Shown here piece by piece: positions 25,569-33,869 of a DNA stretch of 46,141 bases. The stretch lies in assembly GCA_017398945.1 (NCBI GenBank), contig JAFQES010000011.1, forward strand, positions 1 to 46,141. The letters are read 5' to 3'. Each line of letters begins with the position of its first letter. The stretch's first letter is position 1. The stretch comes from Bacilli bacterium. GTDB lineage: Bacteria; Bacillota_I; Bacilli_A; RF39; UBA660. A program made the translations under genes and the position numbers. The notes below the pieces were generated by a model. The model saw only the letters and a program-made list of their open reading frames with translations, did no database searches and was not told the origin of the DNA.

Positions 25569-26345
25569 TTATTTTATTAATTTTTTTACGTGTTCTATAG
25601 CATTTTTTTCAATTCGCGATACTTGAGCTTGGCTGATACCTAAACTTTGGGCTATTTCCATTTGCGTTTTGCCAATCATAAATCTTTCTAATAATATTTT
25701 TCTTTCTCTTTCTTTAATCATATTTAAGGCTTTGCGTAGAGAAATTACCATGTCTTTATCCTGATTGGATTCTTTTTTATCGGCAATTTGGTCTTCTAAA
25801 TAAATAGTATCTCCTCCGTCATTATAAATGGGTTCAAAGATGCTCATTGGATCTTTTAAGGAATCCAGAGCATAAGATATTTTATATTCTTCTATTTCTA
25901 ATAGTTTTGCTATTTCTTCATTTGATGGTTCACAACCATTTTTAGCCATTAGATCATCTTTTAATTTAATTATTTTGTAAGCTAAATCTTTAATACTTCT
26001 ACTTACTCTCAAAGAGGTATTATCTCTAATACTCCTTTTACATTCTCCTATTATTAAAGGAACAGCATATGTAGATAGTTTTAAATTATATGATAAATCA
26101 AAGTTTTCGATTGCTTTAATAAGTCCGATAACTCCAACTTGAAACAGATCATCTAGATTTTCGACCTTATTAGCAAATCTTTTTACAATTGATAAAACTA
26201 ACTTTAAATTACCTTCTACTAATTTATCTTTAGCAGTTTCATCTCCGTTTTGGTATTTCTTAAATAACTCTATAGTTTCATCATGTGATAATACTTTTAA
26301 ATTACTTGTATTAATTCCTGTAATATCGACTTTATGTTTAGCCAT
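25569..26345 (-). CDS. sigG: Sporulation sigma factor SigG
   Basis: 258 residues. It has the SigG-specific N-terminus (KHKVDITGINTSNLKVLSHDE), region 2 (DDLFQVGVIGLIKAIENFDLSYNLKLSTYAVPLIIGE), the EPIYNDGGD block shared with Bacillus SigG, and the region 4 helix-turn-helix (GKTQMEIAQSLGISQAQVSRIEK). Directs late forespore transcription. Its Shine-Dalgarno (AAAGGAG) is part of the 3' arm of a hairpin immediately followed by seven T and the ATG (26354-26385), so initiation is probably throttled and upstream transcription may terminate there. Unusually, a surface-protein gene separates it from sigE. I found no convincing sigma-F/G promoter by eye. Confidence 0.97.
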   Translation of the reverse strand: MAKHKVDITGINTSNLKVLSHDETIELFKKYQNGDETAKDKLVEGNLKLVLSIVKRFANKVENLDDLFQVGVIGLIKAIENFDLSYNLKLSTYAVPLIIGECKRSIRDNTSLRVSRSIKDLAYKIIKLKDDLMAKNGCEPSNEEIAKLLEIEEYKISYALDSLKDPMSIFEPIYNDGGDTIYLEDQIADKKESNQDKDMVISLRKALNMIKERERKILLERFMIGKTQMEIAQSLGISQAQVSRIEKNAIEHVKKLIK

Positions 26346-26353
26346 AAAAAAAG

Positions 26354-26385
26354 CTCCTTTCGTATTTTTGTTGATACGAAAAGAG
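26354..26385 (-). terminator. Hairpin between BspA-like gene and sigG: terminator and SD sequestration
   Basis: On the minus strand CTC-T-TTTCGTAT pairs with ATACGAAA-G-GAG around the loop CAACAAAA (11 pairs, one mismatch), followed by CTTTTTTT and then the sigG ATG. The descending arm includes the sigG Shine-Dalgarno (complement of 26354-26359). T-runs stand on both sides of the hairpin. Confidence 0.8.
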
Positions 26386-26390
26386 TTTTT

Positions 26391-27845
26391 TTATTCATCA
26401 ACATCTACAGCTGATAATAGTAATTCTTCCATTGTATTGTTAGAAAAGTATCCTATATGGATATTATCTGTTGTAAGATTAGTATTTCCGCTGAAAACAG
26501 CATCCCCCAAAATTATTGTATTATTTAGCGTAAGTTTGTTAATGTTATTATTTTTAAACACAGAATCTCCTAATGTTATTTCAGAATTAAATTCTATCTG
26601 TTCTATTTTATTATTACTAAAAGCGCTGTTTTGTATTTCTTTTAAAGTCGTTGGTAAAAATAAATTTTCGATGCTATTGGATTGAAATACATATGCATTT
26701 ATCCTTTCCAGTCCTTCTGGAAGTTCTAATTTAGTTAGTTTTAAATTATTATAAGTAATATTATTGCTTATATATTTTAAATTTTTTAGTCGACTTAAAT
26801 CAAGTGATTTAACCGAAAAAATATATTTGTTCTGTTCAATTAAATCTGAATAATTCATCATACTAGAATATAATAGTGTGTGTTGATTTATTGTTCCATT
26901 GTAATAACTTAAGTCAACCCCAATTGGTACTTTTAACCAAAAATAATCTGAATTTCTCATTCCACTTAAAGCAACATCCCAATCTTGCATTTCACTTACT
27001 TTAACATATCTTATTCCATCAGTCCATAATTCAGCCTGATCAATATTTTCTAAAACATATTTAATTGAATTGAAATTTTTCTCATCAAAAATAACAAAGA
27101 CGGTTTCAAAAGCATCCCAATCAGTATACCATAATACATTGGCATCTATAAAAGCATCCATTTCTATATCAGTTATTTCTGTTCCATTAATGTATTGAGG
27201 AACAATTATATCCCCAGAACACATATAATTTTTATATTTTATAATTGTATTATTATTAGTGATAAAACAATCTTCGGATGCAACTTCATTAGCCATTATA
27301 TTTTGACCAGCTATAACAAATATTTGACTTTTAAATTTTGCATTTTGGGCTTCATTACCAGCATTTACATCTACCCACATTTTTATTTTATGAGTATACT
27401 CTTCTTTTGCCTGTAATACTCCGGAATAGATATTCTTGGCATAACTAGCATCAGAGGAATACTTATCTGCTTCAGCATAATTATCCAACGCTCTTGCTAC
27501 TCGATTATCAATTGCAAGATTAACCACCGCTTGATCAAGATTGACAGCCCCTGTTACATTAAAGACATCTAAGTTAACTAAATATGCAACTTTTTGGTTA
27601 CAATTATTTTTTATTGTAAAGGAATATCCTTCTTGATTTTGGCCTTCTGCATCTGTAATAGGTTGAGTTTTATCTAATGAAATAGTCCCAGTTTCGTTTA
27701 CATAAGAAACACTTAGGCAAGCGGTGTTAAATATATTATTTCCTTGTTGTTTTTTACTTATTGTCCACCACGCAAAAGAGATACCTACTACTAGACAACT
27801 AAGCATGATAGTTGAAATAATTAACATAATCTTGTTACTTTTCAT
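26391..27845 (-). CDS. Surface protein: TasA-like N-terminal module plus BspA-type leucine-rich repeats
   Basis: 484 residues. N-terminal membrane segment (8-25) ending SFAWW, a form seen in TasA/camelysin-type precursors. A beta-rich module of about 150 residues contains Cys43/Cys82 and the pattern ISLDKTQPITDAEGQ ... GYSFTIKNNC. A second cysteine pair (193/209) encloses a short module leading to IVPQYINGTEITDI. BspA-like leucine-rich repeats run from about 340 to 470 (LKLTKLELPEGLERINAYVF, NLFLPTTLKEIQNSAFSNN). No C-terminal anchor. Likely exported, adhesive or matrix-forming. A strong promoter stands before it. It is inserted between sigE and sigG, and its paralogue lies at 31821-33869. 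Confidence 0.8.
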   Translation of the reverse strand: MKSNKIMLIISTIMLSCLVVGISFAWWTISKKQQGNNIFNTACLSVSYVNETGTISLDKTQPITDAEGQNQEGYSFTIKNNCNQKVAYLVNLDVFNVTGAVNLDQAVVNLAIDNRVARALDNYAEADKYSSDASYAKNIYSGVLQAKEEYTHKIKMWVDVNAGNEAQNAKFKSQIFVIAGQNIMANEVASEDCFITNNNTIIKYKNYMCSGDIIVPQYINGTEITDIEMDAFIDANVLWYTDWDAFETVFVIFDEKNFNSIKYVLENIDQAELWTDGIRYVKVSEMQDWDVALSGMRNSDYFWLKVPIGVDLSYYNGTINQHTLLYSSMMNYSDLIEQNKYIFSVKSLDLSRLKNLKYISNNITYNNLKLTKLELPEGLERINAYVFQSNSIENLFLPTTLKEIQNSAFSNNKIEQIEFNSEITLGDSVFKNNNINKLTLNNTIILGDAVFSGNTNLTTDNIHIGYFSNNTMEELLLSAVDVDE

Positions 27846-27867: not shown

Positions 27868-27896
27868 ATTATAACTTAATTAAAGATTTGCGTCAA
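27868..27896 (-). promoter_or_regulatory. Promoter of the BspA-like gene between sigE and sigG
   Basis: Minus-strand TTGACG (27891-27896), 17 bases, TATAAT (27868-27873), starting three bases after the sigE stop. This is one of the best sigma-A promoters in the window. It implies vegetative expression of the surface gene and, by read-through, possibly of sigG. Confidence 0.7.
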
Positions 27897-31820: not shown

Positions 31821-33869
31821 TTATTGTTCATAAGTTACATTAGCACTTCCACTCCAATTTGTCCCTAAACTTACATTACTTGTTACATCCGCTTGTGTTC
31901 TATGAAATGCAATTGTGCTTGTGTTTGTCATTCCTGAAAAAGCATAATCACCAATTGAATTGACAGAATTTGGTATTGTAATTGTTTTTATCTTTGTTTG
32001 ATTTCCAAACGCCGAATTTCCAATAGTTGTTAATTGGCTTGGCTTTGTAGTCGTATCTTCAAAAACAACCTCTTCTAATATACCGGTTATATGATTAGCG
32101 CCAAATGCTGATTCACCTATGTTTGTAACTGAAGCTGGAATCGTTACCCTTTTTATATAGGCATCCCAAAATGAGGATTCGCCAATTTCTGTTCTTCCTG
32201 CTGCAAATTGAAGATTTCCAATATATTCAGCTGATTGGAATACACCATAATCTGTTACTAAATCTAAAGTGTTTGGTAAAGTAACATTTTCAAAAGTGGA
32301 ATCACCAAATGGATAATTATCATTTCGGTCAATTTCAGTTATGCCTTCATTTATATTCATGTTTTGGACTTTCATTCTCATTAGTGGAGTAGTTCTAAGG
32401 CACATTGCCGTTGGATCATTAGCTGGATACATATAAGAAGGATTATCTCTGTCAAATAGCTTGGTTGTTTCTGGTGTTGCTTTTACATCTAAATTAGCAA
32501 CTGAAGCGTTTGCAAATGGAACCGTAATACTGTCGCTATCAGAAGGACATCCTGGTAAATATGAAGCATAAATTGTTAAATCGTCCACATCTATATTGGC
32601 AAAAGCATTATGTCCAAATATAAGTTCTTTATTGTTTTCTCCAAATGTTAATGAAGTTAAACTTGTTTTATAATTGCTATATTCAGTTAAATTAGTAACA
32701 TTTGCTGGAACATTGCTAAACGCACTTTCTTCGATTGTTTCTAAATATATTACTTTACTTAAATCTAAACTTTTTATCGAAACGGTTGATTGTTCTTCAA
32801 GATATTTAAATCCTATTGGTGATGCTTCTGCTGTCATATAAATCATTAATTGATTAACAACCATTTCTGGTGCTGGTTCTGTTGTTGAATTAGCCCGATA
32901 TAATTTTTGATTAGGCTTAGCTAGCATACTTTCCAACTGAGTATTTATATCCTCATTATCTGTATAAGAAATTCCATAATTAACAATATTAACTAAATTT
33001 GACCAGTCAATTTCATCTCCTCTTGTATAATTATCTATTACAACTGAGAACACTGCATCACTTACATCAATTGAAGACTCTTCATTCATTTCTGAATCAA
33101 AGTATACGATATTTGTAGCTGTAGTTTTAAAAGCATTTGTATCAATAGTTTTTACTTCTGTTCCATTTATTTTTGCTGGTATTACAACATTAGTTCCGCA
33201 ACTAGCATTATATCCGATGATTTCACCTTTTCCTTCTTCATCTAATGTAAAGCATGATGCTTCTGTCGCTGGAACGTTATTATTTTCTATTCCCTGTCCT
33301 CCCGTAATCATTACTCTACTTTTAAACGCTCTATTTTGTTGAGTTAATGGCGTTTCTTCTGCTAACCATAATTTTATATTATGACTATTTGTTTTATTAG
33401 CTTTTACCGTCGCCGTTGTTACTTCTTTTGTTTCTCTTATTGATTCTGCATCGCCTTCTAAAATTACATTATCAATAGTTGTTAAATTTTCATATGTTTT
33501 TTCTATTTCGTCATCAATTGCTAATCTAATATATTTATAATCTAAATATGTTGCTCCTGCTACTTCTAAAGATTCTAGTCCAATTATATAATTTACATCG
33601 TATGGACATTTATTTTCAACTGTAAAAGTATATCCATCAAGGTTTCTTCCTTCTTCATCGCTGATTGGCCATGCTGCTCCTAAACTTATTCCCGTGTTTT
33701 CTGGATCAGCATTTTCTAAAACTAAATTTAAGCATGCTGATACCATTTCGTTTGGACTTTTTTGTTTTTTGGTTATTTGCCAATATGCATATGATGACAT
33801 TATGACAAATAAGCTAACTAATATACCCCCTCCTGTTATTATTAACGGTGTTAGTTTCTTTTTGTTCAT
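31821..33869 (-). CDS. Large surface protein: TasA-like N-terminal module plus BspA-type leucine-rich repeats
   Basis: 682 residues, paralogue of the gene at 26391-27845. N-terminal membrane segment (8-27) ending SYAYW. A beta-rich module follows with Cys46/Cys88 and the shared pattern ISLGAAWPISDEEGR ... GYTFTVENKC, ending in LAIDDE. A Cys206/Cys224 module (CFTLDEEGKGEIIGYNASC) leads into VVIPAKINGTEVKTIDTNAF. Irregular BspA-like repeats continue to the C-terminus (LTTIGNSAFGNQTKIKTITI, IPNSVNSIGDYAFSGM). No sortase or other anchor. Probably exported and involved in adhesion or extracellular matrix. Own promoter (33899-33927), good GAGGAG site and terminator, so it is monocistronic. It lies upstream of ftsA. 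Confidence 0.8.
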   Translation of the reverse strand: MNKKKLTPLIITGGGILVSLFVIMSSYAYWQITKKQKSPNEMVSACLNLVLENADPENTGISLGAAWPISDEEGRNLDGYTFTVENKCPYDVNYIIGLESLEVAGATYLDYKYIRLAIDDEIEKTYENLTTIDNVILEGDAESIRETKEVTTATVKANKTNSHNIKLWLAEETPLTQQNRAFKSRVMITGGQGIENNNVPATEASCFTLDEEGKGEIIGYNASCGTNVVIPAKINGTEVKTIDTNAFKTTATNIVYFDSEMNEESSIDVSDAVFSVVIDNYTRGDEIDWSNLVNIVNYGISYTDNEDINTQLESMLAKPNQKLYRANSTTEPAPEMVVNQLMIYMTAEASPIGFKYLEEQSTVSIKSLDLSKVIYLETIEESAFSNVPANVTNLTEYSNYKTSLTSLTFGENNKELIFGHNAFANIDVDDLTIYASYLPGCPSDSDSITVPFANASVANLDVKATPETTKLFDRDNPSYMYPANDPTAMCLRTTPLMRMKVQNMNINEGITEIDRNDNYPFGDSTFENVTLPNTLDLVTDYGVFQSAEYIGNLQFAAGRTEIGESSFWDAYIKRVTIPASVTNIGESAFGANHITGILEEVVFEDTTTKPSQLTTIGNSAFGNQTKIKTITIPNSVNSIGDYAFSGMTNTSTIAFHRTQADVTSNVSLGTNWSGSANVTYEQ

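Follow-up and report, generated by a model that had tools for sequence, protein, structure and literature searches.

In the stretch of DNA analysed here, from an uncultured, spore-forming gut bacterium (the window; 46,141 nt, contig JAFQES010000011.1 of assembly GCA_017398945.1, to which all coordinates in the sigG region refer), the leader of the forespore sigma factor gene sigG is likely to act as a read-through firewall, in which an intrinsic terminator and a lock on the Shine-Dalgarno (SD) sequence would be opened only by initiation in the forespore. This reading is drawn from sequence and rests on the hairpin, a conserved promoter with conserved spacing, covariation of the stem, links of the stem with the U-tract and with upstream context, and recurrence of the design at spoIIR. 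Read-through into sigG is a genuine problem among Firmicutes, as in C. difficile the promoter preceding spoIIGA also drives transcription of sigG (PMC7438776). When misexpressed during growth, sigG is active in B. subtilis (PMC5942855). An element of this kind would be a compact way of keeping a dangerous developmental regulator directly behind a vegetatively transcribed gene without leakage, with five elements (-35, terminator, -10, SD and U-tract) packed into about 50 nt, and with each transcript being readable or not according to where it began.

The hairpin between the BspA-like gene and sigG

In a profile search, the best NCBIfam match of the 25569-26345 product was SigG, and the gene upstream of it matched Pfam LRR_5, in agreement with the two neighbours named in an earlier note on this DNA. 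Further upstream lie sigE, spoIIGA and ftsZ. The BspA-like gene also stands between sigE and sigG in a same-genus relative, where its putative sigma-A promoter is kept, and is missing from this position in many other relatives. Two BspA-like LRR genes (31821-33869 and 26391-27845) whose N-terminal parts are built alike flank the ftsA-ftsZ-spoIIGA-sigE block on the same strand, the second being the one between sigE and sigG. The features of the locus and of the hairpin are as follows.

25569..26345 (-), sigG, forespore sigma factor (NF006071 3.7e-104, TIGR02850 1.3e-100, both below curated cut-offs)
26343..26345 (-), sigG ATG (sequence)
26346..26352 (-), terminator U7 tract, abutting the sigG ATG (sequence, terminator scan)
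26353 (-), bulged C (fold)
26354..26360 (-), sigG SD AAAGGAG, wholly within the 3' arm (sequence)
26354..26365 (-), 3' arm ATACGAAAGGAG (fold)
26366..26373 (-), hairpin loop, 8 nt (fold)
26374..26385 (-), 5' arm CTCTTTTCGTAT, antisense to the SD (fold, terminator scan)
26391..27845 (-), BspA-like LRR surface protein gene (Pfam LRR_5)
27868..27896 (-), putative sigma-A promoter of the BspA-like gene, TTGACG-17-TATAAT (kept in a same-genus relative)

On the minus strand, the leader from the BspA-like gene to sigG reads AAAAACTCTTTTCGTATCAACAAAAATACGAAAGGAGCTTTTTTTATG. The earlier note had proposed a stem of 11 pairs at this place; the stem is real and has 12 pairs including one G-U (26385-26374 with 26365-26354), just four of them G-C. 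As that note also stated, the 3' arm carries the sigG SD and only a short run separates it from the start codon, namely C-U7-AUG (the stretch CUUUUUUU, 26353-26346, and the AUG). An A-tract at 26391-26386 can pair with the U-tract and lengthen the stem. The folding check suggested in the note gave -24.3 kcal/mol for 26410-26325 compared to -9.9 +/- 2.5 for shuffled sequences (z -5.7), with none of 200 shuffles as good. With a U-rich tract immediately 3' of the stem, the hairpin has the form of an intrinsic terminator and ranks first of seven terminator-like sites in a 16-kb scan, and with the SD of the downstream gene buried, it also has the form of a read-through-specific ribosome-binding site (RBS) hairpin. 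No Rfam match was found within the window.

A promoter nested in the hairpin

Leaders of sigG were gathered from the family and class, yielding 176 that were usable. Common to these is the pattern GWATAAA-N18-CAWWAT, with GWATAAA in nearly all, a spacer of 18 nt (counted from GNATA) in 153 of the 176, and CAWWAT right before the SD; the most frequent distance from the -10 to the GG of the SD is 16 nt. When scored with a position weight matrix (PWM), 95% of the 176 leaders exceeded the 99th percentile of the local background, and the window promoter scored 13.4 bits, which no background site equalled. Its parts are listed here.

26392..26396 (-), -35 element GAATA, overlapping the last codon and the first two stop-codon bases of the BspA-like gene (PWM)
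26374..26391 (-), 18-nt promoter spacer, holding the A-tract and the 5' arm (PWM)
26367..26373 (-), -10 element CAACAAA, in the hairpin loop (PWM)

The window -10 departs from CAWWAT, and the motif alone is not enriched in the window's own genome, where the exact pattern GWATAAA-N16-CAWNAT had four matches and its reversed control nine; one of the four is spoIIR. Placement of the -10 within the loop recurs in 47 of the 61 hairpin-bearing leaders. The same matrix, trained on sigG alone, matched 29 of 30 spoIIR leaders, including that of the window's own genome, and 1/24 gpr, 1/26 spoIVB and 0/25 spoIVA leaders. From work in B. subtilis, spoIIR is known as a classical sigma-F gene, and spoIVA is a sigma-E gene. 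As the element matches the former and not the latter, it is best read as a putative sigma-F promoter. This promoter within the hairpin had escaped the earlier note.

Judged by the -10 spacing, sigG transcription is predicted to start at about 26362 +/- 4, within the 3' arm. With the -10 in the loop and the start in the 3' arm, mRNA made from this promoter would lack the 5' arm and hence the hairpin, and the probability that the SD is unpaired rises from 0.002 in read-through RNA to 0.62 in the predicted promoter-started RNA. The AUG is mostly paired in this predicted short mRNA (P unpaired 0.10).

Taken together, the arrangement is a promoter nested in an inverted repeat, with the spacer as 5' arm, the loop as -10, the 3' arm as SD and a U-tract that runs to the AUG. 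Polymerase arriving from the gene upstream, which is the BspA-like gene with its sigma-A promoter here and often sigE elsewhere, would transcribe both arms, and the hairpin and U-tract would terminate it. Any RNA escaping termination would have its SD buried and be untranslatable. Forespore polymerase would start at the nested promoter, within the 3' arm, and its mRNA would carry no 5' arm and a free SD. The proposal of the earlier note that the hairpin ends transcription after the surface gene and hides the sigG RBS in read-through RNA thus agrees with the structure, its covariation and the SD probability of 0.002, as a predicted effect. Of its statement that only ribosomes or RNA polymerase starting inside the hairpin could free the SD, the polymerase part is borne out, in that the nested promoter predicts such a start. 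We found no evidence for the trans-acting factor that it had also raised.

The earlier note further suggested that the hairpin keeps the gene's own mRNA silent until after engulfment, and named a transcript starting downstream of the ascending arm as what would count against its reading. The predicted start lies downstream of the 5' arm, so this silencing is refuted on the note's own terms. In its general form, as an RBS hairpin dampening sigG's own mRNA in the manner of the small B. subtilis RBS hairpin, the explanation can point to that precedent, with a 2-4-fold effect (PMC5942855), and to an SD lying wholly in the 3' arm. We nonetheless regard it as highly improbable, given that the -10 of the conserved promoter lies in the loop and that, as described below, few leaders have the hairpin when the upstream gene is divergent or a separate terminator is present, which would be unexpected for a dampener.

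Stem conservation and upstream context among relatives

Most of the relatives compared are uncultured bacteria represented by draft assemblies. For an arm-swap test, each leader was paired with the spacer of another species and refolded. Among 115 thinned leaders, 36.5% folded at <= -12 kcal/mol with the native spacer and 3.1% with a swapped one. When leaders were picked by a U-run after the SD only, native folds were better than swapped folds by 3.9 kcal/mol (p 4e-6), and leaders without a U-run showed no significant difference between the two (p 0.37). The result held after thinning to 29 dissimilar leaders (p 0.005). Covariation was scored on 20 leaders chosen by their U-run and aligned without gaps, giving 0.291 compared to 0.205 +/- 0.020 in shuffled alignments (0/500 as high) and <= 0.173 when the register was slid by 1-3 columns, with 23 cells changed on both sides of the stem. 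The compensatory changes for which the earlier note had advised looking are therefore present. In alignment A1 of the sigG leaders, the GAAAGG of the SD is invariant. Counting pairs in a fixed register over all 97 spacer-18 leaders was abandoned as the varying -10-to-SD distance diluted the signal, and was replaced by arm-swapping and the same-distance subset.

These changes bear on whether the inverted repeat is an RNA structure at all, or an operator in the DNA, bound by some regulator of the sigG promoter. Operators are often inverted repeats centred on a -10, and the one here is near-perfect and so centred. However, arm sequences vary between species with complementarity kept by double changes, the U-run goes with the stem, and the dependence on upstream context would be unexpected for an operator, which makes this explanation extremely unlikely.

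Some leaders depart from the common form. An SD hairpin without a U-run occurs in L065, L066 and L138, and another family of the class has weaker sigG hairpins (L038, L182). In leaders L064, L067, L069, L070, L073 and L135, a different sigG leader type is seen, TTCCTCAGAATG...ATGGAGGAA, whose SD GGAGGAA can pair with a TTCCTC overlapping the -10, again with no U-run.

The gene upstream of sigG varies among relatives (often sigE, BspA-like in some, others elsewhere), from which it follows that the nested element belongs to sigG and not to its neighbour. The distance from the upstream stop to the sigG start ranges from 45 to >300 nt, and the arm, -10 and SD are near-fixed relative to the promoter. 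This matters for translational coupling, by which ribosomes ending the BspA-like gene would unfold the hairpin and in this way allow translation of sigG from a shared mRNA. In the window, the BspA-like stop codon (26393-26391) sits just 5' of the 5' arm, abutting it and inside the footprint of a terminating ribosome, as coupling would have it; across relatives, however, the stop moves and the gene changes identity while promoter, arm and SD keep their spacing, and we consider coupling very unlikely.

With gene orientation and terminators assigned by simple scripts, a hairpin of <= -12 was present in 40 of the 85 leaders whose upstream gene is co-directional and in 1 of the 26 whose upstream gene is divergent (p 2e-5). 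Within the co-directional set, such a hairpin was seen in 39/59 leaders that lack a separate terminator upstream of the -35 and in 1/26 that have one (p 4e-8), and this relation was significant at all terminator thresholds tried between -4 and -9. In many relatives, a separate terminator just upstream of the -35 stands in for the hairpin. Some divergent-context leaders have moderate SD hairpins, with no U-run. Hairpin state changed at least 27 times on the sigG tree. In phylogenetically independent pairs, the U-run followed context in the predicted direction (6.3 vs 0, p 0.03), and the hairpin itself showed the same direction without significance (5.0 vs 1.1, median p 0.22). With the set thinned strongly, to 29 leaders, the context link gave p = 0.03 and 0.06. 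This pattern of predicted structures is the one expected of a read-through insulator and not of a dampener of sigG's own mRNA.

A plain intrinsic terminator of the upstream gene would also account for part of these observations, with the overlap of promoter and SD being space economy in a small AT-rich genome and burial of the SD having no role of its own. The association of the U-run with the stem, the replacement of the hairpin by a separate terminator and the short gaps in genomes of 0.7-1.8 Mb all fit this. Support also comes from a second fusion of terminator and SD in the same genome, at a ComEA-like gene after an ftsW/rodA-like gene (G000:C5:91459, minus strand; AAATCATC...GATGATTTTTTT-ATG), which has no sigma-F-type promoter. 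Against it stand the SD hairpins without a U-run in the three leaders named above and the rarity of SD hairpins at other genes. In the same loci of relatives, SD hairpins of <= -10 occurred in 28/66 sigG leaders and 6/330 other genes, about 20 times more rarely, so economy alone fails to explain their concentration at sigG and spoIIR. On balance, we hold a plain terminator to be possible but somewhat less than probable. Over about 37% of the window's own genome (391 genes with an SD), only sigG combined an SD hairpin of <= -10 kcal/mol with a U-run of >= 5 before the start codon; at <= -8 there were two, sigG being far the stronger and having the best promoter match. Fusion of SD and terminator as a general genome-wide habit was rejected on these counts (2/391 in the own genome, 6/330 in relatives).

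Known systems, spoIIR and forespore control

In B. subtilis, sigG is described as having two hairpins, a small one that covers the RBS within PsigG mRNA and a large one found in read-through RNA only, which is not formed in PsigG mRNA and is proposed to block read-through translation of sigG (PMC5942855, its ref. 52). Of the two, the window hairpin resembles the large one and not the small one to which the earlier note referred. Compared by description, the large hairpin likewise lies upstream of sigG and forms in read-through RNA only (here a prediction). It has 20+ pairs and no stated terminator function, whereas the window has 12 pairs and a U-tract abutting the AUG, and can terminate for that reason; the upstream gene also differs, being BspA-like here. 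The small hairpin likewise pairs the sigG RBS with leader sequence, but does so within the PsigG transcript (5 pairs, -6.2 kcal/mol; PMC5942855), and the window hairpin would not form in the predicted sigG mRNA, which would start inside the 3' arm and leave the SD unpaired at the probability given above.

A parallel for the promoter is in phage T4-type late genes, where RBS hairpins (gene e, I-TevI, segB, and mobE of Aeh1) have a late promoter inside the 5'-strand region, such that early read-through RNA hides the RBS and late RNA without the 5' strand is translated (PMC3014915, PMC2988022). The sigG leader has the same predicted placement of a stage-specific promoter yielding a transcript without the 5' arm. 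The T4 hairpins differ in belonging to phage genes, using the T4 late promoter, having unrelated sequence and not being described as intrinsic terminators. The window element shares with ordinary intrinsic terminators a stable stem, a U-tract following at once and a position at a gene end, but here the next gene draws its SD from the 3' arm and its SD-AUG spacer from the U-tract, and a promoter lies inside. IS10 transposase is subject to fold-back inhibition, in which the RBS of the gene within is hidden in RNA that comes in from outside, as is predicted for sigG, but what is protected is a transposon and not a developmental gene. The read-through RBS lock itself is therefore known. What is new is that it is fused with an intrinsic terminator, that it and a separate terminator stand in for one another, and that it recurs at spoIIR. 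A literature search for a terminator doubling as the SD of the next gene found nothing direct.

At spoIIR, which is unlinked to sigG, the nested promoter, SD hairpin and U-run were found in 17/29 relatives with native sequence compared to 4% when swapped (p 2e-5; leaders L235-L255), mostly close behind a co-directional gene. The window genome's own spoIIR is without a clear hairpin design. The design therefore appears at two unlinked forespore genes in many species, and is missing or swapped for a separate terminator where insulation is no longer needed. As it recurs at two genes and is absent or replaced where the need is gone, the firewall role is directly testable in a laboratory spore-former.

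The window's family looks, by gene content, like the order RF39, for which a published survey predicts sporulation with reduced or absent spoIIAB and spoIIE (PMC10868615). In 25 genomes of the family, our profile search yielded no SpoIIAB scoring above the curated cut-off, nor any convincing SpoIIE, so control of sigma-F must differ from that in B. subtilis; SpoIIAB was present in five genomes of other families. It is conceivable, though we think it unlikely, that this RF39-like family confines sigG and spoIIR to the forespore in part at the RNA level, by SD-locking terminators around sigma-F promoters that help replace anti-sigma control. If true, this would be a general firewall, making transcripts from other sigma factors untranslatable at early forespore genes (sigG, spoIIR). 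Immediately after a SpoIIAA-like STAS gene comes a sigF-like gene, with no intervening spoIIAB (G000:C9:12904-13533; L004:1486-2475).

Finally, leaders of gpr and spoIVB share neither the promoter matrix match nor the hairpin with sigG. In many relatives, the spoIVB leaders (L284-L294) carry a conserved string upstream of the SD, CATAATAATAATGTAGTCTG, which is probably a sigma-G -10 region plus a conserved leader.
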